Below, piece by piece: positions 2,172 to 63,929 of a stretch of 64,000 bases of DNA. The stretch comes from Moniliella sp. 'wahieum' (taxonomy: Eukaryota > Basidiomycota > Moniliellomycetes > Moniliellales > Moniliellaceae). Below the pieces are notes generated by a model that ran no database searches, was not told where the DNA came from, and saw only the letters and a list, made by a program, of their open reading frames with translations. The stretch lies in NCBI GenBank assembly GCA_003971905.1, contig RSEE01000040.1, positions 496,001-560,000 on the forward strand. The letters are read 5' to 3'. Every line of letters starts with the position of its first letter. Position 1 is the first letter of the stretch. The translations under genes and the position numbers were made by a program.

Positions 2172-2191
2172 CATCATGCATCATGCATCAT
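2172..2191. repeat. ATGCATC heptamer array
   Basis: About three copies of a 7-bp unit made of the palindrome ATGCAT plus C. The same unit recurs at 4233-4250, 42730-42750 and 62961-62994, the last as the reverse-complement word GATGCAT. Confidence 0.85.
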
Positions 2192-2602
2192 AGATGCAAC
2201 CGGTGTGTGTGACGGGCGGCACGCATGCGACATGTGACAGGTATGTGAGGCCAAGGTCGGCGCTTTACTAGGAACGGGATGTGGCCAGTAGCACTAGGTA
2301 ACAGTACTCCGTTTCTAGGGACGCCAGGTACGTGTATCCTGAGACATACGGAGTACTCATTTGAGATTCGGGACAAGTCTCTGCGACAAGCACATGCACT
2401 GCTCTGAACACATTGATCTGGTGGGTGACCAGTGACATATTTGTGTTCTGAGAGTATGTGACACCGCGCTGTGAAATGTGACACCCAGCTGTGAGGTATG
2501 GGGTGTGTGGGGACGAAGCCAATGAAAGGGCGATGGTCGATGAGATCCAGGGTCGATAAGGCCGGTAATCGATACTCGACAATCGACAACGGACAATCGT
2601 CC

Positions 2603-2664
2603 AACGACGTTCAACGTTCAACGTACGCGTTCAACGTTTTGCGCACTGTGAACGTTGAACGTTG
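2603..2664. repeat. AACGTTC / AACGTTG heptamer cluster
   Basis: Several copies of AACGTT plus one base, first as AACGTTC and then as AACGTTG, interrupted by an ACGCGT core. Related degenerate copies lie at 3670-3760. The unit is again a six-base palindrome plus one base. Confidence 0.75.
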
Positions 2665-3284
2665 CATGAGAAAAGTCGTCAAGATACACACAAGATGCAC
2701 CTGCATCCAAAGGGGGTGTAGTTCCACGCTTTAGTGGCATCGGTAATAGTCCAGTTCCCTTCAGTGCATACCTTTCTATTGTCCCTCATGCAGTCTCCAG
2801 CCTCTGCAGTAGCTCATGTGTAAAGCAATCAATGTTCATCGTGTTCAACTACCATCTGGAATTGTGAATTCCAACAGGTTATTGAGCCGGATTCTTCCTC
2901 TTGAGCGCCTGCGCATGCCTGCGACAAGATCAACAACAGGAACAACGCAATACCCCGATGACATTGTTTGGCGGATTTCGCTCCCATTTCCAATTCGTTC
3001 GAAGCGCCTCGCTCTCCTCTTCTTCTTCTCCCCTTCGCACAGTGTCCTCTGCTCTTGCTTCTTCCGTACCAACGATTGATACATTCATTACCATTGGCCT
3101 ATTAGTTTCGCCTTAGCACCTACTGTGACACCCGTAGGATGGCTAGTAGTTACTTGGTATACTTGCCGTGGGTATCTCCGACCAAATCTATTTCTCAAGC
3201 GCATATGTCAATGCACCACGCGCCACTACATATCATCGCAATCATCGATTGACCACTTTTCTGAGATCTCATTGCAATGAGATT

Positions 3285-3316
3285 AGATCGATGATCTCGA
3301 TGATCTCGATGATCGC
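3285..3316. repeat. Nine-base CGATGATCT tandem repeat
   Basis: About three tandem copies of a 9-bp unit built from GATC and CGAT words. It has period 9, unlike the 7-bp arrays, but contains the same kind of palindromic cores. Confidence 0.8.
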
Positions 3317-4232
3317 GCTGACAAGTTCTACTCCTATAAATTTACTTCCCGTTGTGATAAACAAGCGCCAAGCTCCAGATCGCTTGGAAGGGAAACGACT
3401 TTCCGTATATGATTCCCCGCCGGCGCATGCCAATGTGGCAAAACTTCCGAACCAAGGAGCTGTATGTGATGCGTGACGGGGTTCCACGGCACATGTGATG
3501 AATCATGCATTGGGCTATTGCCCCATGCGACATGCATGTGACACGTGATCGCGTGCGCGCGACCCCGGGACAGGAACTGGTATATTGTAACGGAGAACGT
3601 CGTGAAGTTGTGAACGACTGAGGTACTGAGAGGCGCAATTAGTAGTTAGTGCCCAGCACTGGACGCTGAACACGTCGACGCGCTGACGTTGAAGCACTGA
3701 ACGTAACGCTGAACTTCAGCGTTGAACGTGTTGAATGTAGTGGACATTGAACGCTCATTGAAGCTTGAAGGTTGAATATTGAATCCCTCACGTTCATCCG
3801 TTTCCGTATAGCCATCGATGGATTGATTATGCGATGAGTTCCGAGCCGGTAGTGGCCTTCAGCGGTTAGCGTCTCCAGCGCCACCCAAAGGATCAGTACT
3901 CAAAGTTTCAACTGAGGATGGCGACGCCAATGATGAGGTCTAACGCGTCCGCCACAGGAAAAAACGATGGATGAAACGCGGTTATATCTTCTTTTTCACA
4001 TCAGGCTGTGATCAATCTAATGGTCATCGCATTGAAGCTGAGCGCGCTGAGCGCGCTGAGCCTCAGCCGTTGACAGATTGAGTAGAAAGATCGACATGTG
4101 CCACTGAGCTCAGTCGGTCCGGCCGGTCATCGATCATCGGTCACCTGCAATTGGGCTGGAAATCGACAGAGGAAAAGCGATGAGGTGCTGTTAAGCGTCG
4201 AGGGAAACCCGATTGACATATTCGATGTGGGG

Positions 4233-4250
4233 CATCATGCATCATGCATC
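4233..4250. repeat. ATGCATC heptamer array
   Basis: Two and a half copies of the ATGCATC unit, identical in word to the copies at 2172-2191. Confidence 0.8.
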
Positions 4251-4834
4251 GTACACGCGCGTACACAGGATCCGCTCACCCATCCTCGAGTCGAAACTCA
4301 CCGGTGAGGCTCATCGCTCACCCATGCCGGACCCTGCGGCAACCCCGCATGAGGCATGCTCCAGTACTAAGGATTGGGCCCCATTACCGCCGCGATAACA
4401 CACTCTTCACGTTGCCTATGCCAAGTCCGACACCCACAGCACTTGGCACTTGGCGGTCGCCGAGGGTTCGTAGTCCTAGTCAGAATCGGCCGCAGTACCA
4501 GTCGAGATCTGAGACTAGAGATGCTCTCGTCACATAATATGAAATGGCATCCTGTTCGGTGTGCGTATCCACCCCAATGTTGCCTTTCGTGTGTGGTTCC
4601 TGCTAGACCTGACTAAGACCAGCGATTTCCCAGGAACGATGACAAAAAAATCAACGATGGCAAATGCTGGGTTCTACACGTTACAACGTTACAATACTAC
4701 CCATGCTATTACTTGGGTTACTGGAGCGTTTTGCCCGACTCATAACCACCACCATCTCACAACAGCTCGACACATACCTTCACCGCATCGTTTGAGCCTG
4801 TTGTTCGTATCGGGTGGGGGACTCCAACACAACC

Positions 4835-7800
4835 ATGAGCGACCCGGAGAACCGGAAGTACTACAACAGCGATTTCAGCGGCCTCACCACCAATGCGTAC
4901 ATCCTCGCCGCAGGCGGCACCCTCTGCATCGTCTTTTACGAGTTTGCAAGGCATGTTCGTCGCCTTCCGCGCTCCCGCCTCGCCTGGGGTTCCTCACCGC
5001 CACGAAGAAAATCCGCGTCGGGGTTGGGAAAGCAAGAGGGAACGGCCGACGATGTGGGGGTGAGGTGGGACGCTATTGCAGGCGAGACAGTCTACGCCTC
5101 GCGCCCAGATACCACCCCCGAAGAATGGGAGATGGCACACCTCTACACGCCTCGCGAGTTTCACCCTGTTACCCCATCACCGCCATTAACGCGATGGCCT
5201 GTGCTATGGGCGTGGCGGGCACTGATGCTAAAGGACTCGTGGTACACGAAGCACGTTGGACTGGATGCGGTCATTTACGTGCGCTTCCTACGGGCGGCAG
5301 TGTGGTGGATGGTGGTGCAGCTGCTGACGACCACGCCAGCATTGCTCGCTCTGCACTTCCGCTTCAGTTCATGCAGCTCGCGCTCCAACATGGCCTGCGC
5401 AAGCTTGGCATACTTTGTGACCAGCCCAGCGGATTCGACCCAGTGCTCGTCCTTGGGCAACATCAAGTGCCCGCGAGTCAATAACATGGCGGGCCGGCGG
5501 TGGCTGTGGGTGCACCTGGTAGCCATGTATTGGCTCACGCTTACTTGGTTCGCTGCCCTCGCTTGGGTTGCCCACGGCTTCATCAAGATCCGCCGCGACC
5601 TCATCCTCGCCACACGCACCCGCACCATCTACCCGCGCAAGTCGCGCCCATCCACCCCTGACCATACCGTCATTCCCATTGATCCCCAACTCCAGCCCCA
5701 TCCCCATTCCCCGCTATCACCCAACATCCACGCCCCTCACCACTTGGACGGCTTGCACAACGTTATCGACTGCCTCACTGGTCGTGCTTCCGACGGTGCC
5801 CACCCCTTTTTCTCGACCGATGCGGCAGAAAAGGACCCGGCACTGGCGGGATGGCGCCAACGCACGTTGATGCTCACCAACCTGCCTAAGCGGCTGCGGA
5901 ATCCCACCGCTTTAGCATCGGCGCTTGAGCAGCACCTTGGCCTGGGAGGCAGCCCTGCTGGCAGAGCCACCGCAACCATGGGCCCAAGCTCCAGCATACC
6001 CACAGGTTTGGGCTCAAGCACCAAAAGCGCCCCCTCAACCACCAACAAGAGCAAGCGCAAGCGCAAGTGCAAGCACAGGCACATGCGCCAGCACAGGCAC
6101 ATGCACAAGTACACGTATGAGTGCAAGTATAAGTGCAAGCACATCTGCCACTCTCCTCTCCGCACCCTCTTCCTTCCTTCCTTCCCCCATCCAGCACGTC
6201 GAATTAGTGCGCAAGATGTCCGGTCTGAGCAGCTTGGTGGAGCGGCGCGACGCAACTTTGGCCAAGCTTGAGATTGCCCACCTTGAGCTGGCACGGAACG
6301 TGTTAGCCGCATTGGGCCACAATGAAAAGGATGGGGTACGTCGTGGCGAAGCCACCGGAGGATACGGCCCTCGCGCAGCGTCTCTCCCGCTTCATCAAGC
6401 TACCCCAGCCCATGCGTGGCTCCTCTTCGGCGCCCACAGATGGTGAATCCGAGGCTCGCAGCGGCCTAATTTTTGGCCTGAGCTCTTCAACGTACCGCGT
6501 GCCTGCCTGCTTGATCGGTATCAGCCCATGACTCGCATTAGTTCAGGGCCCTACAAAGGAGAGACGGTGCCAACGATCGATCTGCTGCTCACCAAGCTCA
6601 ATCTTTTGACAGCTTTGGTGGATGCGGCTCGGCAGCTTCCCGAGTCGGATTGGAGCCCGACCCCGGTTGCGTTTGTTACCTTCCGCGACCCGCGGCAGGC
6701 CCGCCTGGTTTGGCGCGAGTTGAGCGACCAGTTGATGCCTGCGGTCCATCTCGCTCCGGAACGCAGGGATCTGATGTGGGACCGACTGATGCAGACCACG
6801 TTTGCTAGTCGCGTGGTACGTGAGCCGTGGAGCCGGGGGGTTGGCTTCTTTGGGCGTTTACGGTGTTCTGGATGATTCCGACCCAAGCGGCGGCTTCCGT
6901 GTTGGCCAACATTGGAGGGATTTCCCGAGTCTCGGGACGAGGGTTGCATGTCTTGGAGAACCACAGCCACTGGATTCGGTTCGTGTCGGGCACCTTGCCA
7001 ACGCTGTTGGTGTCGGGCATCATGCTCCTGGTTCCCGAGTTTATCTTCCAAGTCAACCTGCGCGCCCATCGGTTCCTGACTCGAACCGAGTTATACGACC
7101 AGTGCCTGTGCCGGTACTGGAAGTTTGTCGTCTGCAACACCGTCATCCTGTTTTCGGTGGGGTCAACCACATTGCAGACCATCTTGGTCCGAGTCGGGAG
7201 CCATCACCAAGGCTCGATTTTGACCTCCATTGCATTTGCCTTTCCTTCGGCCGCGCCCTTCTTTTGCTCCTATCTTATCTCAACATTGTCACTCAGACCG
7301 GAGCCGAGTTGATTCAGGCCGTGATTGGTTTGATCCAAGCCGTGCAAGCCATGGGTTCGCGCTCGCCGCGCGATCGTGCGTTCAAGGTTCTCCCCCGCAA
7401 GTTTGGCCATGCGATCTGGATGCCGCTCCACCTCACAGCCTTGACCATCGTTTTCGTCTTTGCCATCTTCAACCCGCTTGTGGTTTGCTTTGCCGTGGTT
7501 TACCTTTGGATGGCACTGTACGTAGCTTCCCTTTCCCTTCATCATATACCAAGCAGCTACTGATCCCTCTGACTTGCTGCAGGATTGTGTTCAAGAAAGA
7601 TCTGGCGTACGTCTACGTCTCGCGCTTTCATGAGAACCAAGGAGAGATTTACTTTAAACGGATGCTCCGCTTCTCGCTCGATGCTCTGGTTGTCGCCCAC
7701 GTTGTGCTGACCATCTTCTTCGCGGTAACCAAGGTCAAGGCAGTGTACATTGCTCTCACCATCCTTCTCATCCCGCTCACCGTGCTTGCCAAACTGGTCG

Positions 7801-10312
7801 GCACGCGGTTCTGGCTGTCCCAAGTCCGCGCATTGGATGACGACGAGGCCAACGCGGTGTGCGGGGTCAACGAGACCCCTTCCTGGCTTCGTCTCCGCGC
7901 CGAGTACGCCCATGCCGGGGTGGGCAACGACGTTCCCCTTCACCTTGCTGCCCACCTTGGCAAGGAGTCCCACCCCTACCATCCGCGACCGGTCATCTCC
8001 GGGCCCCTGCGCCATTTCCCCCCTCCCTCGCCCAATCCAGGGGCCCCACAGGATGCTCGCGCCCGCGGTCGGTACCCGGTGCGGTTGCCTGCCCCGGTCG
8101 AGTCGGACAGCGTGTGGTGGGGTCGGCTTCACTGGCTTTTGGACCGGTTCTGTGCAGATGGAAACGACATGCCAGGCTGGGTATCGCTCCTGTACTCGAA
8201 CGCGCGTCGGTCTCGGCTAGAGCAGCTCGACATCAAGTTGGATACCAGAGCACCGGCGGTGCTGCAAACTTGGATCGCCACCTGGAACGCCGCATGGGCG
8301 TTTGTCCAGTCCAAAACTAAGAAGGCCAAGAAAGATTCCGAGCGCCTGGCTGCGGCCGGGGCACACTCTGCCTCGGCCCACGCCAAGCGGAAGGACCGCA
8401 AAGCCCAACGATCGTCCTGGGTCACCATCGATGACGGGTACAGCGTCCTAGGCTTCAATTCGCCATTTCCTTCACATCCTTTCTCCCGCCCTCCCCTTCC
8501 GTCTCATCCCAGCAGGATGTGGAGTCTGGCGGTGCAGTGGACACCAATCCACTGGGTATCACGTTATCTGCTTTGCCTTCTCGAGACCGAGGAACAGGGG
8601 CGTTGCCTGCTCTCCCAGAGGCTTACAACAGTACCGACAACCTTCCTGAGGCACCACCGCTGGCGCACGCTCCTTCTTTTAGTTCTTCGATTGGAAGAGA
8701 TAAGGAGAAAGGGTCCACGTGGCTGTCCCGTCGCGGATTCTCAACCAAAGACTTTTTCTGGACGGGCCAGGACGCGCACCTGCTCAATTCCGGGAGCAAG
8801 TTTGATTCTTCCTTCGATTCTCCCTTTTTGTCGGAACGATCGCTGCCGTCTGGGCAGGAATCGCCTAGTAACTTGGCTCTGATGCTACCTTCCATTCCGT
8901 ACGATCAGAACCAAAGTTATGCGCTTGACCCTCGCTTGGAGCCCGGCCTGCCTCTGCCCTTGCCACAGGACTCTGAACCCCGTCATCCTCCCTCTTCCTT
9001 TCCCTCGCATCGTACCCGTCTCTTGACTCCCCATCCAGAATGGTCTAATTCCCTTCCTCGCAACCACGACCATGAGCACAACACGATCATGGTCACGGTC
9101 ACAGCCACGGCCACGGCCACAGCCACGGTCACGGTCACGGCCACGTCTATACCCACGGAAATCTCTCCATCCCCATCTTTTCCAAGGACGTGCGCGCCCT
9201 CAGCCAGCACATCTGACGCTGATCTCCCTCGCAAGCGAGCCATTTCCGAGTCTTCAGAGGAAAGCCACAAACTTCCTTCCGGTTTACCTATTGACCGTGC
9301 GTGTGGCGATCCGTACGACGAGCGCTTCCCCCCCGTTACCTTGGCCCAGAACCTCTTTGGTCCGCCCCAGGCGCAGGGGGTGACCTCGATCCCGATCTCG
9401 CCTCTTTGCACGCTGTCAGGCGTCGAGAACAAGAACGAGAGCGAGGGCTTGGACCATGCATCCCTTCTCTCCTTGTGCAAGTGCCGACGAACGAGGAGCG
9501 GCTGTTGCCCGTGCCGTACTACGAACCCAGTCCGACGACGCCGGGCTGGGCGGATGGCAAGGCGGACGTGCCGTCGCCCAATTTCGCAAAGTGCGGATGG
9601 CTGCCGATCCAAACGCGGCTGCTGACCACCGACAGCGGAGTAGGGTGGAGAAGAAGGACGGGTTCAATCCCGATGGGTGGAGCTGGCGCGAACCGGGGCG
9701 GGGGCCGAACACGGCGCTGGCGGTACCGCACGCGCCCATCCTATGGGACGACCGCAAGGACGATCTGGCGCATTACGGCGCCCCGGCGTACGTCGCGACG
9801 CTGGATCGCCAGCTGTGGCTGCCCCGCGATCCCCGCAAGCGGCTCGACTTGGGCGATACGATCGATTGGCTCGGGCCGGCACTCGTCTCGTCTCACTTTG
9901 GGGGGGCGGGATGTTGCGCTGGCAGGGCGCGGTGCCCGGGACGGACAAAGCGTGGAACGAGGGAGACTGGGACCGGTCGGGCTGTGGGTTGCCCATGACG
10001 GGGCCCGGCGAACTTTGCTGCAGCCCTGTGTGGCCGCCTGCTCGGGGGATGCGCCGGTGGCGGGGCGCGTCGAGGGCAGGAGCCGGGCGCGTCGGGGCGG
10101 AAGCGGGTCGAGTGTGAGGCAAGGGCCGATAGGCGGGGCGGGCGGGGCCGGGGGCGGGAGCACGGGCTGCCGCTGGGCGTGCTGCTGCGGCGAGTGGTGC
10201 TGGAGGAGGAGCGCGGCGGCGGCGGGAGTTCCGCATGGCGGAGGCGGCGCGCAACATGCTGGCCAAGAAGCGCGCAGGCGCTGGACGCACTGCGAGGGAA
10301 GCGGCCCCCTAA
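4835..10312 (+). CDS. CSC1: CSC1/OSCA-type osmosensitive cation channel
   Basis: Multi-pass membrane protein of the CSC1/OSCA/TMEM63 (RSN1_7TM, DUF221) family, calcium-permeable channels opened by osmotic or mechanical stress. The ATG at 4835 (MSDPENRKYY) gives a short outer N-terminus and a first membrane segment (NAYILAAGGTLCIVFYEFA). Two more segments lie at about 5280-5360 and 5500-5590. The cytosolic domain opens with TLMLTNLPKRLR (about 5860) and closes with HVELVRKMSGLSSLVERR (about 6195), with a GCAAGC-type low-complexity insert at 6045-6145 that probably includes an intron. The 7TM core covers about 6830-7800, with an intron at 7518-7582 (GTACGT..CTGCAG). The tail carries the family's LWLPRDPRK motif near 9820 and a basic end closing with TAA at 10310-10312. 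Reading needs several frame changes (near 6350, 6840, 7280, 8460, 9600, 9950 and 10150) besides introns. The family call is firm; exact exons are not. Confidence 0.88.
9097..9152 (+). repeat. GGTCAC/GGCCAC hexamer tract inside the CSC1 tail
   Basis: About nine copies of a GGYCAC hexamer within the coding tail of the CSC1-like gene. In the long open frame it reads as alternating Val/Ala and Thr. One base over it reads as alternating His and Gly/Ser, continuing an HDHEH stretch just upstream. Confidence 0.8.
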
Positions 10313-10893
10313 CAATACTATACAAGTAGTACCTGTTGCAACGAGAAGCACCGTATATATAGCACTGGTAGATATTAGTCCCTGTGCAGCTTGCCGCGCA
10401 GAGCGGCCGTCCGTCGGCCGAGGCAGATCGCGAGCTAGCCAGCCCAGAGAGCGGGTGGGTGCGGCCAGCCACGGCCAAGAATGTGCGGGGACACGAGGCG
10501 GCTGCACATCCATTGCCCTGCGCTTTGGCCGCGCCGGGCAGCAACCGTGGCAGCTTGGTTCCACCCGACACGCGAAAAACATCAACCCAGTGGGTTATAC
10601 AGCCGACGTCGTCTACGCAGCCACAGGCCAGCACCAGCACTAGCCGAGTAAGGAGCAGCGCAGACAGACGGGCTGACATGTGGCATGCTCACAGCTGACA
10701 CACCATGCATTGCATCACCCATCGACAGCGCTCCCGCTCTGCGATTGCTCAGCGCTGATCTCAGCATCACCGGCCACATGACAGCTCACCGGTGAAATAT
10801 GCGGCTGCCGTTGGAACACGCAAACTCCATCACCGGTCATTGGTCCTCCTCGCCCCCCCTCCCTCCCCTGCTCCGCCACCGCCACTGCCGTCC
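10313..10893. other. Spacer between CSC1 and AUR1
   Basis: About 580 bases with no supported gene. It contains the CSC1 3' end, ACCGGTG/ACCGGCC words at about 10765-10800 close to the AUR1 start, and nothing else I can name. Confidence 0.5.
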
Positions 10894-12484
10894 ATGTCGT
10901 CGCCGCGCGAGGTGCTGGCGCATCTCCGCGCCACGCACCACAGCGCTGTCCTTGACCGCGTCGCGGCCGCCGATGTGCCCATCTGGGGCCGCATCGTGCT
11001 GCCCATCGCGGCCGTGCTCGCGAGTGTCCTCCTCCTCAGCACCTGCATCCCGTCTCTCCGCCGCCTCGTGTGCCATTGCAGCCGCGTGCTTCTCAACGCC
11101 AAGCATCCCCTTCGCTGGCTCGCCGGCCTCCTCTTCGGCATGTCCCCGCCCCTGGTGTGGACATTTGCATTCAAGCAGGCCCGCCGCATCCCCGACCACA
11201 TCCGCCCCCCCCATACCACCGTCTTGCCTGTGCTCGAAACCTTTCTCCTCTCGCCCCTTGGTGTCTTTCTCTCCATGGTTTCTTATCGCCCCGCTCGCAC
11301 TCCTTATCTGGATCCGCTATGCAGGCCGCAAGCCTCACCAGGCCGTATTCTACCCGACCGTCCTCATCATGTTCCCCCCCACCCTCCGCATCCTCAACGA
11401 CCTAGCCATCGGCCTCGACCCGTCGCCGTTCCAGGACGTTGCTGCCTGGATCTTTTAACGGCGTGCTTCACTTTGCCTCACCCTTTTGGCTGGCTGGTGG
11501 ATTTGGTTCTTTGGTGCACCGGTGCAGCAAACGGTTTTGGCTGGTGCCTGCTTTCTTTGTTGGTCTGCTCCTCCATATTCTCACACCGCATGCCGCCCCT
11601 TGGTTCCACGACGTCTATCCAGCCGGTACAGTTCCCGCTACTCTTTCCCTGGCAACGCGGCGGGTCGGTGCGCGTGGATGAAGTACTTTGGCACCCACTT
11701 GTACTCGGAACGGCTTCCGCCGTGGGCCCGTTTTTTGGTGCGATCCCTTCCCTCCACGCGGCCACGGCTGCATGCTGCGCGCTTTTTTGTGGCGCGCTAC
11801 GGAGGCGCGGCAGGGACTGGGTTTATGGTGGTGTACTTTGCTCTCATGTGCTGGTCTACCATGTATTTCCACCATCATTTTGCCGTGGACCTGATCGCAG
11901 GCGCTGGAATGGCCATTCTTTTTTTCTCCGTCTTTGCTCACTTTGCTCTCCGGCCCCTGGACCGTGCGCATGTCCTCGATGCGACCACGCGGGGTGGACC
12001 GGCTGTTTGGCTGGGGAGCCCCCATTCATTGGTCTAGGGGCTACACTTCCCTCTTGCCCCCTGATCACCGCGAGGGGAGCACTTGCCCCCCCTGTTTTCT
12101 TGATGTGGACGAGGAAGTGCAGCTGGTCAAGGTCTTCTCCCATTCGCAACCCCTGATCGGCCCTTGGCGTCTTGGCCGGCATTCCCATCGTCCGCGAAAC
12201 AGCCAAGGTCGGCCAACTAAGCGTCGGTCTCCTTCTCCAAGAACGAGGCAGGAGGCAAATCCCTTGTAGCGAGATGCATGGTCCATCTTCCTCCACCATC
12301 TGTCCTGCCTCCGCTGCGACCTCTGTCTCCTCCCGCCGCCTCGGGACTCAGCTCAGGCCCCTCGAAAGCACGCCCACCACGCTCTCGCACTCTGGACGCC
12401 AACCTGACTTGGACTGGAAGAAGAGGGGTGGTTGACGGCGCAGACAACCCCGGTCTTACCGGTACGAAAGCGTTCGTACAGTAG
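10894..12484 (+). CDS. AUR1: Inositol phosphorylceramide synthase catalytic subunit (Aur1)
   Basis: Golgi membrane enzyme that transfers phosphoinositol from phosphatidylinositol to ceramide; the target of aureobasidin A in fungi. It belongs to the PAP2-like superfamily. ATG at 10894 (MSSPREVLAHLR) precedes hydrophobic segments at about 10985-11060 and 11110-11180. The Aur1 core is recognisable: a YSFPGNAAG segment near 11645, GAIPSLHAATA at about 11737-11768 with the first active-site histidine, and MYFHHHFAVDLIAGAG at about 11860-11905 with the second histidine and the aspartate in HxxxD spacing. These match the His-His-Asp triad of yeast Aur1. Frame changes are needed near 11280, 11450, 11510, 11650-11700, 11820 and 12030. 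The cytosolic C-terminus is unsure: I favour the frame ending LTGTKAFVQ at 12484, but stops at 12269 or 12435 are possible. Confidence 0.85.
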
Positions 12485-12888
12485 TCATGCCTCTAGGACA
12501 CTTGTTTCCCCGTCCAGCTAGGCACCGCACCCTCCTCTCTCTTATCCTTCCTCCACCCTTCTCCCCCCTCTGGACTTTTGCATTCCTGGGCCCTCGCCAC
12601 AACCCTGTTCCCTTCAATTCCCTTCATCTCCCTGTACTTTTCTTCTTCCAATCCCTCATCTTGCCTAGGCACTCCCGGAGGACGTTTGCGTGGCGTTCTA
12701 TCATTTGCATACCTATATACTCTTCTCTTGTCCCCCCCCCCCCCCCACCCTCGGTGCGCCTCCACCGTTCGCCTTTGGATGCCTGCCCATGCTTTAATAT
12801 CGGATACCTGGCACCCTTTCGTGCCACAGATCGGAGTGCTTGAATGATGATGGTGTATACAATGATTACAATTGGGCACATCAACAGC
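12485..12888. other. Spacer between convergent AUR1 and RPN6
   Basis: About 400 pyrimidine-rich bases carrying both 3' ends. It contains a run of about 15 C residues near 12732-12746. No gene is supported. Confidence 0.6.
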
Positions 12889-14250
12889 TCACCCCAACTT
12901 GTTGGCCTTCTTTGCTAACGAGTCAACCACGTCGCCCACATGCTTGAGGGTCTGTAGCGCAGCCTCGTATGTCTTGTCCTGTGGTGCCTCGTCAAAGACA
13001 ACCAGACACCCATTCCCTTGGTCCAAGATCCCATTGAACATCTTGTCCAAGATCATCTGCGACAGTTTTTGCTCCACCTCCCGCTCGGGCTGACGCACCC
13101 GTTGCGCCACATATCCAATCTCCACCCGCGAGTAGGGCTCAATCACTCGTAGCAAGTTCTGCTCCAGCAACGTGTCGTACAGCTCGGCGAGGTGATTGCG
13201 AATGATCGGATCATTGGACAGTTCCGCTTGGTACTTCTTCAATGCGGTTTCAAATGCCTCCAACGACCGTTCTTCGTGTGCCTTGGCCACGGCCGACATG
13301 GCCTCCACATCCCGCTCTGTCGCCTTCTCCACCGCAGCACCCTTGGCGCCCCATCCCTTGGCTCCCTTGACCGCCTTGGATTCGGCCACCAATGCCGTCT
13401 TGCCTTGGATAATCGCCGCCACATCCTCCGGCAGGTTAAGCATAATTTTACACAGCAGCATGTACTTGAGCGCCAGCCCTGCCCGCGGATCGTTCTGCCC
13501 AGAGAAGCCCTCCAGGGTTTCGAAAAAGTATGAGTAGGCAGTCGAGTAATCCTTGTCTTTCGCATGCAACACACCACTTTGGAGATCCAGTTGTGCCTGC
13601 AGCAAAGGCGGCGTGTACATCGCGTTGGCCGACGTACGAGCCGAAGTGAGGGCTGTCTTTGCCTTGGGGATGTTGGAAATGGCAAAGTTGACCTTCGATT
13701 CCAACAGGTGAACCTCAGTCAGGATCATCTTGTCATCCAGCTTCTTCAGTTCCTTGAGCAGTCGCTCAATTAACGGAAGCGCCTGACGGTAGTTTTTCGC
13801 CTCGTAGTACAGCGAAATCAGCTTGGTCTCAAGACTCTGCTTGAGGAAAATCCGTTTTTCCTCCTTGGCCCAGTCAATGTTTTCCTCGGTAATCCGGATC
13901 TGGGCAGCGCGGGCTGCATCGCCAGGAATGTCGCCAAACAGGTCAATGAGCTGGCGGATAGTTTTGCCGTCTTGGCCTTTGCCAGGTGTGCAAGTACAGC
14001 ATGCGAGTCGCGCACAACGCTTGCCAACGCATCCACGTCGGCCTCGTCGCAGTACAGCTGGCCAAGACGGAGAAGAGCGAGTTCCTGCTCCCAGCACGGC
14101 CTCGCCGGTGGCCGAAGACGCCTTGTCGGCCGGCGGCTGTTGCGCGAGCACAGCCTTGAGCTGCGCCTCGCCCCCGGCGCGGTCTCCGGCTTCAAACGCA
14201 GTTTCGGCAGAGGCGACGGAAGGCAAGGTGCCGGATGCGGGGGTGGCCAT
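12889..14250 (-). CDS. RPN6: 26S proteasome lid subunit Rpn6 (PSMD11)
   Basis: Scaffold subunit of the 19S regulatory particle lid that clamps lid and base to the 20S core. The ATG at 14250 (MATPASGTLPS) gives about 450 residues, close to the 422-434 of human and yeast Rpn6. A TPR-like helical solenoid (residues about 110-300, with LPLIERLLKELKKLDDKM and AYSYFFETLEGF) is followed by a PCI domain with NHLAELYDTLLEQNLLRVIE and KLSQMILDKMFNGILDQG, and a closing helix VVDSLAKKANKLG before the TGA at 12889-12891. One frame change near 13985-14000 separates the N-terminal helices (LLRLGQLYCDEADVDALASV) from the rest. A G-rich insert (AKGWGAKGAAVEK) lies between TPR and PCI parts. It is head-to-head with RPN7, another lid subunit. 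Confidence 0.95.
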   Translation of the reverse strand: MATPASGTLPSVASAETAFEAGDRAGGEAQLKAVLAQQPPADKASSATGEAVLGAGTRSSPSWPAVLRRGRRGCVGKRCARLACCTCTPGKGQDGKTIRQLIDLFGDIPGDAARAAQIRITEENIDWAKEEKRIFLKQSLETKLISLYYEAKNYRQALPLIERLLKELKKLDDKMILTEVHLLESKVNFAISNIPKAKTALTSARTSANAMYTPPLLQAQLDLQSGVLHAKDKDYSTAYSYFFETLEGFSGQNDPRAGLALKYMLLCKIMLNLPEDVAAIIQGKTALVAESKAVKGAKGWGAKGAAVEKATERDVEAMSAVAKAHEERSLEAFETALKKYQAELSNDPIIRNHLAELYDTLLEQNLLRVIEPYSRVEIGYVAQRVRQPEREVEQKLSQMILDKMFNGILDQGNGCLVVFDEAPQDKTYEAALQTLKHVGDVVDSLAKKANKLG

Positions 14251-14521
14251 GGTGGTGGGGGAGGCAGCAGCGGGGCCGAGCAGTGGGCCCAGCGCATCAG
14301 CCAATCGGGTGAGCCCTAGCCCACGCAACGAGTGGCCGCGTCACGCGGCCCACACTGGCGCCCCGCCGGCCGCCGCGATTCCGCCGGCGCGGATTCCGCG
14401 CCGCTGGCAGCAGCAGCAAGGACGCGTGTTGCTTGCCAGTGCTACGGGCCGTGCACGGGCCGGACGAGGGTAGGTATACCCGTCGCAGCCGCCCGCGCTC
14501 GCCCCCACCACCATCGTCATC
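14251..14521. promoter_or_regulatory. Bidirectional promoter of RPN6 and RPN7
   Basis: A 271-bp spacer between the divergent start codons of two proteasome lid genes. It contains a CCAAT box (AGCCAATCGG, about 14299-14308) and a palindrome at 14334-14350, GGCCGCGT-C-ACGCGGCC, with 8-bp arms around one central base. I do not see the ascomycete Rpn4 PACE core (GGTGGCAAA). Shared control of both genes is inferred from the arrangement. Confidence 0.6.
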
Positions 14522-15797
14522 ATGTCCGCCGACGAGGAGAGCATCCAGCCCATCCCCAACCTGCACTGGCAGCAGCTTCTCTTCACTGTCGTCACGGTGG
14601 GTATGCGGCTGCGCCCTCGTCTGCGCTCGCTGCTTCGGAGCTGCTCGCTGGCATCGAGGCCGACGAAATGGCACCCTACTATGCTGCTTTGCTCGCCGAC
14701 CCGCTCATCAGCAAGAAGTTGCCTTCTCCGGTAGAGAGCACCAGTGCCCACCACGCGTCTTCGCCTCAAGATCTGCTGGCCAAACTCGAGGAGCGGAACA
14801 AGGAGGAGCTCGCCAAGTTTGATCAGCAGCTTACCAAGGCCACCGAGGAGGAGGGCGAGATGGAGATCAACGCGGTGCTTAAGAACAAGGCGAGCTACTA
14901 TGCCAAGATCGGGGACCAAGTATGTGCATTCCTTTTTCCCTCTTTTTTCTCTTGGTTGCTGACTCGTCCCCTCTGCAGGACAAGGCGATTGCTACTACCA
15001 AGGAGGCCATCGAAAAGGGCGCTGGGCTCGGCAGCAAAATCGACTTGACTCTCGGCCTGATCCGCATCGGGTTCTTCTTTGGAAACACGTCACTTGTTAC
15101 CTCCTCGATTACAGAGGTTAAAAAGTTGGTTGAGGAGGGGGGCGACTGGGACCGGCGGAACCGGCTGAAGGTGTACGAGGGGCTCCACCTCCTCTCCGTT
15201 CGGGACTTTAAGCGGGGCGGAGAGCTGTTCCTCGAGGCTCTCTCCACGTTTACCGCCACCGAGCTGCTGGACTACCATGCGTTCGTGTCGCTGGCTGTGA
15301 TTGCAAATATGCTCGCATTGCCGCGGACCGAGCTGAAGAAGAAGATTCTGAATGCGCCCGAGGTGCTGCAAGTGATTGACGAGCTGCCGCATTTGAGGAC
15401 CTACACCCAATCCTTGTACAATGGCAATTACAAGGCCTTTTTCGAAGCGCTGGCCCAGGTCGAACAGACCTACCTCCTTCCCTCGCGCCTTCTCAATGCC
15501 CACGCACGCTACTACGTACGGGAAATGCGCATCATTGCGTATGCCCAACTACTCGAGTCCTACCGCTCCGTCACGTTGCGATCCATGGCGGATGCATTTG
15601 GGGTAACGGACGAATTTATTGACCGCGAGTTGTCCCGGTTCATTGCGTCGGCACGGCTGCCCGCAGTGATTGACAAGGTGCACGGCGTGATTGAGACCCG
15701 GCGGCCCGATTCCAAGAACGCACAGTACAACCAGATCATCAAGGATGGCGATGTGCTCCTGAACCAACTGCAGAAGCTGTCGCGGACAGCACTCTGA
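14522..15797 (+). CDS. RPN7: 26S proteasome lid subunit Rpn7 (PSMD6)
   Basis: Lid subunit of the 26S proteasome regulatory particle. The ATG at 14522 starts MSADEESIQPIPN. Family hallmarks run throughout: AGIEADEMAPYYAALL, EELAKFDQQL, GGDWDRRNRLKVYEG, ALSTFTATELLDYHAFVS, and in the C-terminal PCI domain YYVREMRIIAYAQLLESY and AFGVTDEFIDRELSRFI, ending VLLNQLQKLSRTAL. An intron at 14920-14978 (GTATGT..CTGCAG, branch site TTGCTGACTC) splits GDQ from DKA. A frame change near 14598 joins the first 25 residues to the AAAPSSALAASELLAGIE segment; a base is probably missing or extra there. Length (about 405 residues) fits the family (389 in human). Confidence 0.95.
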
Positions 15798-21980: not shown

Positions 21981-22088
21981 CTTGAAGCTTCAAGCTTCAA
22001 GCTTGAAGAGGGCGTTGGATGTGTTGATCTTTAGAGTGGGTTGCTGACTAGACTGCCTGCTGAGCGCTTGAAGCTTGAAGCTTGAAGC
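21981..22088. repeat. AAGCTTC/AAGCTTG heptamer arrays
   Basis: Two blocks (21981-22008 and 22066-22088) of three to four copies of the palindrome AAGCTT plus one base. The first block switches from AAGCTTC to AAGCTTG so that its halves are mirror images. Confidence 0.85.
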
Positions 22089-27670: not shown

Positions 27671-31628
<3,958 letters not shown>

Positions 31629-32905: not shown

Positions 32906-34320
32906 CCCTTCCACGGTGGAGAGACAAAATAATATCACCGATGCTTGCTGGTGGCGCAGCCACCGGGGGGGCTTACGCGATGCTGACCTAAACTGTTGGT
33001 GCAGAAGTGGTACACTTGGCACGCCAGTAGGGTTAGTAATTTTTGTATGGTATAGGGATCTGTACTTTTGAGCAGGAGTGGGCTCATCAGTCGACACCCC
33101 CTGAGGGCCCGAGCGTGCCAACGCTTATGAACTATAGCTAGCAATTGTCACTCGCGTGCACCCAGAACGGAGAGGAGGCTTGAGGGGGTTGGCTGAGCCG
33201 CAGCGCTCAGGCTGAGGGCACTGCAATGACAACTGTTCAAGCAAGGCGTCGTCGAGATCGCAGAGCGTTATAGGTGCAAAAAGGGGAGGGGGTTCTGGAC
33301 ATTTGGACCCGAACACACGAAGAATGGATCGGTGTGAAAAGGAGTTTGGCAGGCTGTGGCTTTATAGTTCAGTGCTACTGATCAAATGGTCCGATTGGGA
33401 TTCCGTTGGTCCAATTCGCAAAGGGAATCTCTCTCAGGACTCATGCATCTGAAGAACATCAGGCACTATGGTGCTTGATGTTGGTAGTGGGGCCTCTGTC
33501 CTGAGATGTATGAACGCATCCGAGCGGGACATTTGCGCCCTCAGCGAGGGCTCAGCTCGGCGCTGAGGGCCAGTAGCGCCCAGGCTCTGACTGAGACCCG
33601 TGCGAGGGGTTTCTTGAGCCCCCTATCAAACTAGTTCGCGAGGGCTCTCTGCCCATATGAGGAGAGAGAGCGTGGGGTTTCCAATCAAGAACTTTTTTAG
33701 GAGACTGTGGGTTACCGGTTACCCGGCTACGGACCGAGAACGAAACGAAAGTGCATACTAAACAGGGTGGCGCCCAAGGTCAGGCCGTGGAGGTATGCGA
33801 ATACGGACCCAGACAGAGAAGATGAAAACAAAGTGACGAACGGAAAAAGGGCGCAACCCGCAGGACGGGGAACGGGTCGGGAGGGCGGACTTATAGAGCC
33901 CCGTACCCTGTCCCATGTCCGTCTGCACACTGAGATCCTCGATATGGACGCGCGGGATGGGGGTCTTACTAGGAAGGGCTACAAGGGGAGAAGGTAGTGC
34001 AGACTGGCTCAGACTGGAGCTGCTCTGCCCGTGCGTGATTTGAAGCGTGTGGGGCCTGACTAGTGGTGACTGGAGAGGTGGGCTCGTGCTGAATGTGGCA
34101 ACCCTCCTCAGCAGCACGCCAGGCGCGAGTTCAGACTGACGCGCTCATAACAGATGCGCTGCGCTGAGGGCGTGACGCGGTGAGGCCTGAGGAGCGGCAG
34201 CTCAGGTCTAGTCGCGAGGCTGACACGGGGCGGCTGACGCTGTCGGGAGTGTGGATGAGGCCGAGGAGGGCTGGGTGCTGTGGGCGAGGCAGCGGAGGAG
34301 GCAAAGCACAGGAGGGTGAC

Positions 34321-34412
34321 TAGGTGACTAGTGACTAGTGACTAGTGACTGACTAGTGACCAGTGCGGCCGGTGACCGGTGACATGGTGACATGTGACAT
34401 TGACATGGCGCG
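34321..34412. repeat. ACTAGTG, ACCGGTG and ACATGTG heptamer cluster
   Basis: Four to five copies of ACTAGTG give way to ACCGGTG and then ACATGTG, each a six-base palindrome plus G. Three different units of the same design lie side by side. Confidence 0.85.
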
Positions 34413-38362: not shown

Positions 38363-38443
<81 letters not shown>

Positions 38444-40354: not shown

Positions 40355-41674
40355 CCAAGGGGTCGCGTGGGTGTCGGTGGAACAGCGGGCTGGGCTAGCA
40401 GATGCATGCATCAGTGTTCTGTGGTGCAATGCTTTACGTGATACGAAAACATGTAGGGTTCCCACCCGCAAGCAACCCTCCGTTAGACAGGGATAGTGGA
40501 ATTGTAGGACACACATGCAGACCAGAACGCAGGTAAGACACAGCAGAGTCTTTATAATACGAGCGACAGCGAATGTGTTGAAGAGATGGAGGAGGAGTAT
40601 CGATGAGTTGAAGCGAAGTGCGAGATACAGGTGGTGGCAAGGCAAAGCCAGAGGCGTAAGTTGTGTTACAAGAACAAAGTAAACCTACTTTTGAATAGAT
40701 AGTTATACTCTGAACTGAAGAAGACCTAATAGCTCCCACCACGTTGGAACAGACTGATATACGGATGAAGCTGCTAGGTGATCACATAAGGTCACGGTGA
40801 CCCTTCTCTCACTACCACGGCAACCTCTTCTACCAGTTGTCATGCACAACTCTTCAATGCTGGGGCGCTGGGGCAATGCGCCAATCATTAATCACGCCTC
40901 TCATCTCCTGCGCGTGTTGATAATATAAGCATCATCACCCCTCTTATCCTCGCGGACGCTCCTCTGCTCTTCGGCGGTACCCTCTCTGCTTGGAGCCACA
41001 TCCTTTATTCTCCTTCTTCGGCATACAAAACTCTTTTCCGGCCTGAGCGCCATGAGCACCTGAGCACCCTCCGCTATGCAACAAAAACGCTATACTTTTT
41101 TTGCTCTCCGCCAGCGCTCAACAGAGCTCAGGGAAGAAGGGTTTTTGTTCGATATTACCACAGGATTGCTATACAAGATCCCTCTCTATAGATGCAACGC
41201 TCGTTAAGACGTGATCGTGCGATTGTGCAAGATAAGAACATCATCCAGTAGCACTTCCTCGAAAGGGAATTGTCCGAGAGATAACTTCTGGTAAGCGCAG
41301 AGAGGCTATCACATATCATCGATGAATCACATCGACATCGACAATCGACGGCCATTGATAATCACATCGATCATCCCGAAGTCTAGTATATAGTACCCAA
41401 GTACTCAAGCCCTCGGGAAACCTCAGGCTAGCCACTAATAATGATCCTGGTGACCCAGCGACGTCCTAAGTGCAGTTATGCAATGGCAGAGAGAAGACAG
41501 GAGCTGGGTTGAACCCAGACTGAGGATCAGAAGAAGAAGGAGATGAAGGAGAAGAAGGAGAAGAAAGGAGAGCGGCACTAGGCCAGGGGATAGGGATACT
41601 GGTGTGATGCCCGGATGAGTAAGATGGTCAGGAGTGCCGCGGAGGTGGCTGGCCCATAGGACCCTGGTCAACAA

Positions 41675-41905: not shown

Positions 41906-43074
41906 TTGGTCCGAGTGCGTTGTACGTTGTTCGGGTTAGTGCGGCTTAAAGCTTAAAGCTTAACACCCGTTACGCGCTGCTAATTACTAGTTACTAGTTG
42001 CTAGCTATGCTAGTTCCTCGCGTTGAGTCACTATGTTTGCGTGTGGGGTATCGTTGCTACACGTGCGTTAGGCCTGACATCCCCTCAGGCCTGAGGGATA
42101 GCTGAGGGATAGACGTTAGGAGCCTTTTTGTAGGAGGCAGCAGTGAGAGACAGTAGGACATATCCTCTGCGCCCCCCGCGGATGTTCTGTCACATGTCAC
42201 ATGTCAACGTTCAACCACGAAGACAAGACATTACTATTAGGTACAAGTTCGTAGTTACTCGTTTTATTACCAGAGTTATTATAGTTCCCTGCTTTTTTGC
42301 GTGGCTGGCGGGCTGGGATAGGGAATGGATACTAGTGCAGGTGCCAACATAGTCGGACTCGGCGCTCTCACATCTCTGCTACTTCCACCCACAGTCTGTT
42401 ATTGCACCCGCAGGCTCCGTCTGGCACTCCGTGCTCCTTCTCAGATCTCATCTCCCATTTCCGCCTCTCCACATTCGTTCAGTTGGGAACTGGAGGATCG
42501 GATCCCAGACTTGCAGCTGGTAGTGAATTGCATTGCCCCTGTCCTGCCTTCCAGGAAGGAATACCTGAAGCTCTGAAGGAAGACACCGAAAGAACAGGGT
42601 TTGGGCTACCAGTGTCACCATGCCACTACGCCAGTGTGACGCCACATGCACCGCACTCAGCCTGAGCGAGGAGGCACGATCACCCGTCGCCGGTCACAAA
42701 CATCCACTATCCAATAGTCAATAGTTCAATGCATCATGCATCATGTCCATCGATGCTCGAGATGATCTCCGACCCCTTGCTCCTGGTTCATGATTTTGCC
42801 GCTTCGGTCTAATTACCTTCTGGGGGTCTGGCAGTCAGAGTCATCGATTATCTTTAACGAGAGGCCGCGGCCAAATATGTTCGGCTGGCCCTTAGGAGGT
42901 TAGGCCGGTTAGGCCTTAGGCCTTTTCAAGTAAGGCCTCCTCCTGGAGCATCCCGGAAAAGTTCCGCATCCCACAGCCACCATTCTCGCTCCCGCGGATC
43001 TGCTGGAACGCGCCACAGAGGTATGGGTTACCACTTTTCGTGATCCCCTCAGAAGGTTGACGCGTTGAACGTTG

Positions 43075-43142
43075 ACGATCGAGATGATCGATCATGATGA
43101 TCGATGATCCGATCTATGCTAGTCACGCGTCACGCGTCACGC
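43075..43142. repeat. ATCGATG and ACGCGTC heptamer arrays
   Basis: ATCGATG/ATGATCG words at 43075-43112 are followed by three copies of ACGCGTC at 43124-43142. Both units are palindromes (ATCGAT, ACGCGT) plus one base. Confidence 0.8.
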
Positions 43143-43147
43143 GCCAC

Positions 43148-43316
43148 GAGGCTTCAAGCTTCAAGCTTCAAGCTTCACGCACTTCATGCTTCAAGCTTCA
43201 AACTAGCTTCAAGCTTCAAACTAGCTTCAAGCTTCAAACTAGCTTCAAGCTTCAAACTAGCTTCAAGCTTCAAACTAGCTTCAAGCTTCAAGCTTCAAGC
43301 TCTTCAAGCTTCATGC
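43148..43316. repeat. AAGCTTC heptamers grown into an 18-bp tandem array
   Basis: Copies of AAGCTTC flank five tandem copies of an 18-bp unit CTAGCTTCAAGCTTCAAA (about 43203-43290), which is itself two AAGCTTC cores plus a CTAG spacer. On the plus strand this reads as a repeated FKLQTS peptide, a by-product of the repeat. Confidence 0.9.
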
Positions 43317-44022
43317 ACTTCATGCCGCTCAGGCGAGTCCTCAGTACCTCAGTGAAGCTTGAAGCCTCAGGTCATAACTCTACCCCAAGCCTCGAGCCCC
43401 TGAGACCCTCCTGAGGCCTGAGGCCCAGTACTAAGTACTAATCGTTGAGATCCTCAGGTCCTCAGGCGCAGGGGTGCCGAGCCGCTGAGGAGAGCCGCTC
43501 CGAGTAACGGGGCTGTATTATACTCTCTGTCTGGATCCCCACCTGGGCGAAGTACGGAATAATATACGTACTGGATCGGCGGGGTTAATTGTTGAAGCAG
43601 GAGGTTGTCAAGGTTTTTGCCTGAGCCTTTTCAGTTTCTTGAAGCCGCCGGCGTCGGCTCCGCGGACTATGTTGCACTCATGTCGATACATACAGAGGGT
43701 CGATGTGCGACAGAGGCTTCTGTGAAGGTGAGGCGTGAAATGTGAGATCTGAGATCTGATATTTGAAGCGTGTAATTGCGATCGGGGTGTATACGCCGGC
43801 CTGGATGCGCTCCACCAAAAGCTTCACGAGCGGGCGCAGGTCGGCGCTCGCCCCCACCAGTGTGGCAGGCAGCGGCGATACGTAGCACACGTTAGCACGA
43901 CCCACAGGGTCTGGGGCTTGGCGGCTGCAACGTCGAGGACGTTGAGGCCTGAGGGTGGCACCTCTGTGGCTCCCTGTCGCCACTGACTAATGGATGCGGC
44001 CACCGAAGGCTCGCTCAAGGCG

Positions 44023-52271: not shown

Positions 52272-53003
52272 GGCTGGCGGATGAGCAGGGCGGTGTGGTG
52301 GTGGTAGTAGTAGTGTAGGGGGTGGGGCATGACTGGCTGCGAGGCGAGGAGGCTGCCCCAGCTGCCCCAGCCTGGCCGGCGCGGTGATCGGAGGATCGAT
52401 GATCCCATCCTCAAATCATGACATGTGGCATGTGACATGTGACATGCGTGCCCTATGCGGTAAGCATTACATAAGCACGGCCAGACTGGCAAGCTTGCCG
52501 GTTGAAATTTGAAAGTCAAGGGTTGAATGTTGCACGTGCACGATTGACTACGCCGTCTGTGCTGCAATCGCTAGAGACAGTGTCGTCCCAAGGCCCCACC
52601 TAGTCCTGCTGCCTCGCCAACTGCCGACTGCCCTTCCTCACACACACACACACACACACACATGCAAATAAGCCATGAAGAAGGAAGGTATACATGCTCG
52701 CAGCCGGGAGAAGAAGCATGGGCTGGGCGGAGGACAGCGCCCACGCCAGCGCGGCGACCCCCGAGGGAGCACGGAGAACGGGGGGCAAACGCAGAGGGGG
52801 CGCAGGGAAAGAGCAAAGCAGACGCACAGAGGACAGGCAGCCCTCGCAGGAACCACGCAGACAGATGATGCAAATGACGCAAACGAGGCGCGCGGGGCAA
52901 GGCAGAGGCACAGGCACAGGACCACGCCCAGCAGAGGGGGGGGCACTCGTGCCCACTCACGCCTACGCCGTCACCAAGGCTATGCGGCCTCGGCATGGGG
53001 TTG
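52272..53003. other. Upstream region of DOM34 and downstream region of the PHD gene
   Basis: About 730 bases with ACATGTG heptamers (52418-52447) and a (CA)n dinucleotide run at about 52640-52662. Some of 52.7-53.0 kb could belong to the end of the PHD gene. Confidence 0.45.
52418..52447. repeat. ACATGTG heptamer array
   Basis: Three to four copies of ACATGTG, one degenerate, about 150 bp upstream of the DOM34 start codon. Confidence 0.8.
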
Positions 53004-62099: not shown

Positions 62100-62960
62100 G
62101 AAGAAAGAAGTGAAGCTCGTCGTGGTCCTGCTGAGTGTGGGGGGAGGTGGGAAGTGCAGAAGCGATGGCGGCCGAAGCTGGTGGTGCCGTTTGCGCAGAG
62201 GGAGAGGGCGGGAACAAGGCAGCGAGGGAAAGGTAGAAGGTGCGAGCGACTGGTGCATTTGAGGCAGGAATGTTGGGTGTGGAGGAAGATGTCGGGCAAG
62301 GTGGTTGGCTGGTGGTGGTGGTGCGGTGATTGTGGCGGCGGGAGGGGAGGAGGGTAGGGCAGGGGCAGGTCCGCAACGTATGCGTGGCGGCGGATGGCTG
62401 CTGCATCATCCCACAAAGGAGAAAGAAGAGGGGGGGGTGGCGGTGGTGTGCGGTCGAATGGAGGCCAGGACGAGGTGGGAAAGAGGGTGGAGGTGACCAG
62501 AGGCGGCAGCGAGGGAAGATGTTCGGGCAGCGCCTGCCGTGGGCCTCAACGACTCGCCTATAACCGCGCGCCAACCGAGGCTGGACAACAGCGATCAACC
62601 GTAGGACTAAGCACGTCCAACCCCGCCTTGTTTTTTTGCTGGCCCCAAGGCGCAACTGCGGGTCAGCGACGGCGGTGCGACGGCACAAACGCCGGTCGTG
62701 TGGTTGTGTGAGAACAGGCGGGCAGCGGGCCAGTGTCCGGCGCCCTCCCGCCGCCGCACGGCCTAGACCGATGGGCGGCTCGGCCCAGACTGGGCCCAGA
62801 CTCCGGCCCGCCAGGCGCGGTACAGTCGCCCCCCGCTGAACCTCGGTTCTCTCGCATCATGCATCCCCTGTCCCAAACGATGCATCATCCATCACTCGCA
62901 CTCTTCTCAGACGGCGGTCTCAGCTCAATCTCAGCCCAGGCGCCGTGCGCCCGCCTGTCG

Positions 62961-62994
62961 CATGATGCATGATGCATGATGCATGATGCATGAG
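62961..62994. repeat. GATGCAT heptamer array (about five copies)
   Basis: The cleanest heptamer array of the window: near-perfect tandem GATGCAT, the reverse complement of the ATGCATC unit at 2172 and 4233. Confidence 0.92.
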
Positions 62995-63279
62995 TACGAG
63001 TTGCAACAGTGCCTCAGCCTCAGGCAGGTCTAACTCAGTATTGGTACTTGACAAGCTTGACAGTACTCACCGGCCCCAGATCTCAGATCCCCAGACGCAC
63101 TCAGAGATCTCAGAATAGGAGTCTCCGACACTGCCAAGTGCCTGGTCCTGAGGAAGGCGATGGCAATGCCTCCAATACCCCGGAGGACTGACTCAGTACG
63201 TGGGCAGTCACTGCATCCTCGCCCCATCGAACCCCGCAGGAACATTCACCGTCCGCTGGCCTCTGGAGGCAGACGCCAG

Positions 63280-63302
63280 GACATGTGTGACATGTGACAT
63301 GG
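63280..63302. repeat. ACATGTG heptamer array
   Basis: Two to three copies of ACATGT plus G, like those at 34390 and 52418. Confidence 0.8.
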
Positions 63303-63883
63303 GAGTGACAGATGCAGTCCAACACACTAATCATCAACATCAAATATCAATCACAATAGCACTTGAGAGCTTGAGAAGGAGGCACCGTGGCAGGAGTGTG
63401 GTGCTCTTTATTGTGCCCCCATTTTGGTCGCTTTTCGTTCTCCTTCCTTCCGGGTCCTCTCTCTGTCGTGCAGAGATCGTATCCCACATATCATACACAT
63501 ATTTACGGCACACCTTGCTCATTCCCGTACATCAGATTCTCAGAGCCAACATTCTCCACACTCGTTGCATCTTCGTCGCAGCCACGACAGTCTGTCGGTG
63601 CCTTGGATATCGTCCCAAAACTATAGGACGTGCTGAGAGGCGTGCGGACATGAGAAACACAACAACGGCGAAAGAAGACTTGATTAATGCAACTGAATGC
63701 ATGCTCCGCTTAGCCCATTTCATGCCGGCGCTTTCCTTTTACCCTCGGGCTCCTTTCCGTACGTCTGCTCGTAGTTTTGTAGTCCGCGAGGGAGGTGTGT
63801 GGGGAGTGTTCTATCTGAGATATATATCAGCGCGAGTGTCTCACTTCCACATTGCGCGTGTATTGTATGTTCCTGTATGTTCG

Positions 63884-63929
63884 GTCAAGCTTCAGCTTCA
63901 AGCTTCAAGCTCAAGCTTCAAGCTTCAAG
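63884..63929. repeat. AAGCTTC heptamer array
   Basis: About six copies of AAGCTTC with two slips, close to the right edge of the window and the same unit as at 21981 and 43148. Confidence 0.88.

Follow-up and report, generated by a model that had tools for sequence, protein, structure and literature searches.

Arrays of palindromic heptamers in a Moniliella genome as possible scars of a recurring micro-insertion at TNA sites

The closest described counterparts of the sequences treated here are the footprints of excised transposons and the products of template switching. With Ds in Candida albicans, footprints were reported to consist of short deletions and P nucleotides at the duplicated sites, repair proceeding through hairpin ends with addition at the intact end and trimming of the other; 28 types were recorded among 128, the duplication being 8 bp and the longest addition 3 nt (accessible part of PMC5873905). 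In basidiomycetes, hAT7 and Kyakuja elements are described with 7-bp target-site duplications (accessible part of PMC12730594), and the small inverted triplications of FEN1 mutants, of direct-inverted-direct order, have been partly ascribed to end fold-back (accessible part of PMC13334657). The present analysis concerns tandem arrays of palindromic heptamers in a 64,000-nucleotide window of the genome of Moniliella sp. 'wahieum' (contig RSEE01000040.1; C40:496001-560000 of a 69.5-Mb assembly in 223 contigs), which may be the scars of a micro-insertion recurring at TNA trinucleotides.

A sequence-only reading of the window had described these arrays as diverse heptamers of one design, a hexamer palindrome plus one base. 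When its 21 listed coordinates were re-read, the stated units were present; at 41690, 43075 and 44023 they belong to arrays that are partly imperfect, and at 62961 the orientation is opposite, the unit being ATGCAT+G rather than ATGCAT+C. Perfect tandem 7-mers of at least 14 bp numbered 53 in the window versus 4.1 on average over 20 dinucleotide shuffles, and 39 of the 53 had a six-base palindrome plus one base as their unit (0.6 in the shuffles). A comparable bias was absent at other periods; palindromic runs amounted to 20 of 104 at period 5 (15.9 of 54.75 in the shuffles), 0 of 10 at period 8 and one of 13 at period 9. The count proposed with that reading as a means of refutation was applied to 20 stretches, each 10 kb long, spaced along contigs C1-C5 and not drawn at random, and gave 93 palindrome-plus-one units among 157 tandem heptamers. 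The hexamer is not an arbitrary palindrome, however: 86 of these 93 have the form A x y y' x' T, and what repeats is TNA (mostly TCA or TGA) together with a 4-bp palindrome. Genome-wide, (ATGCATC)3 had 424 matches, overlapping ones counted, and its reversed control 0. The observation of palindromic heptamers is confirmed, and it extends beyond the window.

A collinear allelic copy on contig C7, found by a search with window positions 41600-44400 and extended to 25896-55772, was identical to the window in 27,368 of 28,514 aligned columns (96.0%). Indels between the two numbered 165 at 1 bp, 8 at 5 bp, 5 at 6 bp, 14 at 7 bp, 7 at 8 bp, 8 at 9 bp and 3 at 10 bp, with a renewed rise at 7. At many sites one haplotype had a bare YXTNA (the flanking dinucleotide YX followed by TNA) and the other YXTNA-xy-YXTNA, xy being the reverse complement of YX; such pairs were AGTAA (twice), GTTGA, TGATC and AATCA, with longer allelic copies in CTGAAG-CT-CTGAAG and GGTCACA-CC-GGTCACA. 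In general form this is (NN)TNA(nn) + 2 bp + (NN)TNA(nn). Reverse-complementing the two leading bases of the intact copy gives the added 2 bp, and a 4-bp palindrome is thereby flanked by two copies of one TNA. A first model, in which a 3-bp target-site duplication surrounds a 4-bp palindrome, was dropped because, in the allele pairs, the flank already contains one half of the palindrome. The pairs are listed in window coordinates; the features have no strand assigned.

42188..42215: TGTCACATGTCACATGTCAACGTTCAAC, three 7-bp units round one TCA; C7 has a bare TGTCAAC (allele pair)
43064..43075: GTTGA-AC-GTTGA; C7 has a bare CGTTGA (allele pair)
42565..42578: CTGAAG-CT-CTGAAG, a 6-bp copy plus 2; C7 has a bare CTGAAG (allele pair)
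40883..40894: AATCA-TT-AATCA; C7 has AATCA (seen in the alignment, missed by the automatic test)
33710..33723: GGTTACC twice (TTACC-GG-TTACC); C7 has a single GGTTACC (allele pair)
42928..42932: bare AGTAA in the window; C7 has AGTAA-CT-AGTAA (allele pair)
43503..43508 (approximate): bare AGTAAC in the window; C7 has AGTAA-CT-AGTAAC (allele pair)
about 40778..40782: bare TGATC in the window; C7 has TGATC-GA-TGATC (allele pair)
43340..43364: CTCAGTACCTCAGTGAAGCTTGAAG; C7 is 9 bp longer (AGTGAAG-CT-AGTGAAG) (allele pair)

In the 28-bp array at 42188, CATG occurs twice (left flank TG) and ACGT once (right flank AC), as the flanks of TCA predict. In an automatic test, near-complete repeats with periods from 5 to 12 were retained if their collapsed form, and not the full form, was found in the other haplotype with at most 2 mismatches. 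The repeats that passed had a reverse-complement 2-nt spacer in 7/8 cases at period 7, 4/4 at period 8 and 4/4 at period 9, and at the remaining periods in 2/7 (period 5), 3/3 (6), 2/7 (10) and 0/4 (11), with the caveat that long repeats may pass by chance; 4 of the 15 reverse-complement-spacer units of periods 7-9 had a loop other than TNA. Gain or loss of units is seen at individual TNA sites, and the scars differ between the two chromosome sets. That one process makes the arrays, as had been suggested, is supported by these allele pairs and by the single grammar that spans units of differing sequence.

The grammar was examined in 264 kb, comprising the window and the 20 sampled stretches. 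Two TNA with the same N enclosed a palindromic tetramer 305 times, and each of the 15 other XnY anchors did so 9-44 times; with a different N, the tetramer between TNA was also palindromic above expectation (56/261, palindromes being about 6% of 4-mers). Even spacers of other lengths between identical TNA were palindromic in 40/129 (length 2), 10/249 (length 6) and 5/173 (length 8). An unbiased scan for direct repeats of periods 5-14 was strongest at period 7 with a 2-nt spacer, where the spacer of maximal 5-bp repeats was complementary to the tail in 49/335 and to the head in 40/335 (20.9 expected); periods 8 and 9 showed a weaker excess of complementary spacers. Among hexamer palindromes, those with outer A..T reached 1.66 times the second-order expectation, the other three classes 0.84-0.98, and lone palindromes outside runs showed little or no excess. 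With TnA as a 3-nt loop, 351 spacers were reverse-complementary and 0 mirror or complement (both strands), the runner-up anchor AnG having 33 together with 64 control spacers; one dinucleotide shuffle yielded 2 such sites and 50 kb of E. coli none. In the whole genome, AGTAACTAGTAA occurred 777 times, falling to 4 when the spacer order was changed (mirror control) and to 3 when TNA was changed to ATA; TGTCACATGTCA occurred 2359 times, with 9 for its mirror spacer, and the reversed-letter controls gave 50 and 5, respectively. Merged sites amounted to 64 in the window and, at 2-30 per 10 kb, to 181 in the 200 kb sampled; by extrapolation this would correspond to some 60,000 in the whole assembly. 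A TNA-anchored duplication with a 2-nt reverse-complement joint is very probably the rule.

Ordinary slippage on chance palindromic seeds, perhaps aided by hairpin folding of the arrays, is an improbable source of these sequences. Arrays at 41833, 43096 and 43123 do differ by whole units between the haplotypes, and slippage therefore probably alters copy number in existing arrays. However, the bare-site alleles offer no second copy to slip on, periods 5 and 9 are without palindrome bias, and the drop from 777 to 4 on changing spacer order means that spacer content matters. Mixed arrays likewise speak against it: of 10 triplets that combine different palindromes and have TNA as all three anchors, 8 kept one N. 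Across units, it is mostly the palindrome that varies and TNA that is retained; adjoining units with differing palindromes formed 102 pairs across TnA as against 29-72 across other anchors.

Still less credible, and indeed very improbable, is that selection maintains the arrays for proteins that read palindromes, as places of binding, modification or pairing. Sites in the window cluster in stretches taken as intergenic, with none in 4,247-21,765 or 22,088-33,709, as selected sites might; frameshifts, however, would be expected to keep arrays out of genes. The palindrome is whatever complements the flank, and 15 of the 16 flanking dinucleotides were seen, in broad but uneven use (per 1000 YXTNA: CT 42.7, CA 35.8, TG 28.6, GC 3.0, AT 2.3, TT 1.2 and TA 0). 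Nor are the sites well conserved between haplotypes: of 38 in the window segment, 10 were identical on C7, 21 differed in length and 7 by substitution, and the 34 C7 sites divided into 11, 18 and 5, some sites being entered from both sides and the split depending on the alignment. Since one half of every palindrome is templated by the two bases next to TNA, the proposal that the arrays serve a palindrome-binding protein, or as modification, replication or pairing sites, is not supported; the palindromes are produced by local templating and not chosen. Among palindromes with a single mismatch, 64 kept the inner pair only and 76 the outer pair only, and this near equality suggests decay rather than a further class of product.

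The joins between copies, read relative to a 7-bp copy NNTNANN with the added bases complementary to the end of the intact copy, point to how the insertion may arise. Loss of 2 bp with addition of 2 was counted 119 times (43-fold over other anchors), loss of 0 with addition of 2 37 times (19-fold), loss of 0 with addition of 1 22 times (14-fold), and loss of 1 with addition of 2 seven times (9-fold); loss of 1 with addition of 1 had 64 counts (14-fold), partly the first class read differently, and plain non-palindromic 7-bp duplications were 2.65-fold over other anchors. These joins agree with duplication of the 7 bp NN-TNA-NN, an intact end receiving 1-2 P-type nucleotides and the opposite end being shortened by 0-2 bp. 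It is proposed, with a probability of roughly one half, that the arrays are the accumulated scars of one recurring micro-insertion made by a staggered cut and hairpin-type end repair. A transposase-like enzyme would cut a dyad-symmetric 7-bp site with a stagger, giving the 7-bp duplication; one end would be sealed as a hairpin and opened about 2 nt from its tip, leaving P nucleotides, and the other would be trimmed by 0-2 nt before joining, in the manner of hAT-type excision footprints. Nucleases of the Artemis type cut hairpins at some 2 nt from the tip. Overhangs of 4 nt, one clipped and the other filled, would give the loss and gain of 2. Repetition of the event at one TNA, using the left or the right flank, builds heptamer arrays in which TNA is constant and the palindromes are equal or change. 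The agent could be either a cut-and-paste element of rare occurrence or a nuclease independent of transposons.

The likeness to hAT footprints lies in the duplicated target bases (copies of 5-7 bp in the allele pairs here), in P nucleotides complementary to the intact end with loss at the other, and in the hairpin intermediate that was inferred for Ds (accessible part of PMC5873905); the 7-bp duplication is shared with hAT7 and Kyakuja elements, as far as these are described in the accessible part of PMC12730594, and in Basidiomycota alike, although neither kind of element was found here. The present frame differs from the 8-bp duplication of Ds in being 7 bp, centred on TNA and repeated into arrays, and no element or transposase was found in the searches described below.

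Several observations weigh against a cut and hairpin-type repair. The hAT footprints are varied and include plain losses, so far as the accessible part of the Ds report extends, whereas the addition here is a nearly fixed 2 nt and plain joins with a loss of 1 or 2 bp fall below background (0.71 and 0.56). Loss of 4 bp with a 1-nt spacer (122 versus 24) and with a 4-nt spacer (17 versus 0.85) is unexplained; these classes are perhaps internal to arrays. Five of the 16 polymorphic units of periods 7 to 9 lack a TNA loop. The polarity of the allele pairs is not fixed, each being a gain or a loss without an outgroup, and no copy-specific TNA insertion was found in seven copies of a 232-bp repeat and four rDNA loci; the structure of duplication plus 2 bp must itself have arisen once by insertion. 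No convincing element with inverted ends and a matching duplication was encountered in the approximately 350 kb scanned, and a profile search for the hAT domain PF05699 was without match, as was its control. In the 264 kb, none of 3,723 inverted pairs of at least 9 bp had 3-bp TNA duplications. Repeats of 7 bp centred on TNA and lying 40-4500 bp apart formed 3,059 pairs, 49 of which had inverted-repeat-like ends (0 with an A-N-T-centred control); 42 of the 49 were AAGCTT arrays, four more began or ended in arrays, and three were weak matches (L024, L035 and L039).

The same geometry could be generated by fold-back template switching, the principal alternative, possible although rather unlikely. 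A nascent strand having copied YX-TNA would fold over the TNA loop, copy xy from its own YX and then recopy the template from Y, inserting a 7-nt mini-hairpin, or 8-9 nt with a longer loop. Consistent with this notion, the duplication and the inverted 2-nt copy are coupled, plain short duplications are not enriched, and the insertion measures 2 + loop + 2 at loops of 3, 4 and 5. Four-point template switching yields such a geometry if point 4 precedes point 1 (accessible part of PMC7954356), and priming from loops within one strand has been suggested (accessible part of PMC8794818). However, a hairpin of 2 bp and a triloop has no predicted stability (minimum free energy 0 for 5/5 9-mers in a DNA folding model). 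The triloops known to be stable are of the GNA type, yet TNA is needed here and GnA had 8 sites with 15 control spacers; even with a longer loop, TNA still adjoins YX. Among additions of 1 nt the outer y is commoner (27) than the inner x (14), although fold-back would call for x, and inverted copies of more than 2 nt are few, stems of 3 and 4 with a loop of 3 numbering 27 versus 17 and 6 versus 1.2 expected. A search for family A polymerases, directed at Pol theta, was without match and also missed the expected mitochondrial enzyme; a family X polymerase is present in the genome.

Template-switch mutations, as presented in the accessible parts of PMC8794818 and PMC7954356, resemble the present scars in that an adjacent reverse complement is inserted, hairpins are possible and an upstream return produces a duplication. 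They differ from the 2-nt, TNA-anchored copies found here at about 0.9 sites per kb of the sampled stretches; the template-switch study of rRNA, in the part available, requires an inverted copy of at least 6 nt for recognition of a single event. The triplications of FEN1 mutants average about 148/160/148 bp as against about 5/2/5 bp here, and no TNA-like motif was noticed in the accessible text (PMC13334657). No description of such a process was found among the open-access articles listed by full-text literature searches, most of them seen as title and opening of the abstract.

As a more far-reaching reading, it may tentatively be suggested that NN-TNA-NN is the recognition site of a sequence-anchored, transposon-free activity. 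This could be a transposase-like nuclease that has been domesticated, or a fold-back enzyme coupled to a polymerase; it would add seven bases time after time, two of them reverse-templated from their neighbours, and so keep making arrays genome-wide. With the TNA rule, an odd repeat landscape becomes a mutation signature with an exact rule, testable in any sequenced fungus. Were the enzyme found, it would show how a genome acquires short, locally templated insertions by the thousand, and new tandem repeats and DNA able to form hairpins would have a source other than classical slippage.

Further arrays of the window, again with no strand assigned, are the following.

2172..2190: ATGCAT+C array (tandem scan)
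4233..4246: ATGCAT+C array (tandem scan)
2609..2622: AACGTT+C array, then the same palindrome + G at 2649-2660 (tandem scan)
21988..22001: AAGCTT+C array, then AAGCTT+G at 22067-22087 (tandem scan)
34316..34350: TGACTAG array (ACTAGT+G); the window is 21 bp longer than C7 (tandem scan and alleles)
34371..34399: mixed array, TGA constant and palindromes changing (CCGG, CATG) (sequence)
43123..43141: ACGCGT+C array; the window is one unit longer than C7 (tandem scan and alleles)
43152..43324: AAGCTT+C arrays, including an 18-bp tandem at 43188-43291 (tandem scan)
52431..52444: ACATGT+G array (tandem scan)
62961..62993: ATGCAT+G array, the longest in the window (tandem scan)
63896..63929: AAGCTT+C arrays (tandem scan)

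The tandem at 43188-43291 has the 18-bp unit GCTTCAAGCTTCAAACTA in 5.8 copies and is made of heptamers; related stretches occur in L035 and L036. Cyanobacterial heptamer repeats were considered as kin and dropped because the genes are fungal. An RPN7 exon in the window had 78% identity to Tilletiaria anomala (Ustilaginomycotina, Exobasidiomycetes, Georgefischeriales), the best among named matches, and 97% to a metagenome protein, which places the host among basidiomycetes close to the smuts. A protein search with the open reading frame (ORF) at 24953-26860 gave no match.

Other repeats and haplotype differences were also noted. The 232-bp repeat (41439-41672) is missing from the C7 allele and has more copies elsewhere in the genome; it was rejected as a source of the scars because of its 5-bp duplications and the look of a solo long terminal repeat at its ends, both seen in the seven copies examined. 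The 320 bp at 32738-33057 occur on the window haplotype alone and include GC-rich hairpins of mitochondrial appearance, and at 49250 the C7 allele has 82 additional bases in a stretch with long ORFs. An array of TGCTGT at 38251-38451 comprises 34 copies and coincides with a 129-bp allele length difference. A 10/20-bp GGAAACGGCC array occupies 219 bp at 32010-32228, and a repeat of about 175 bp at 2958-3133 has 74-76% identity to more than 20 listed places in the genome.

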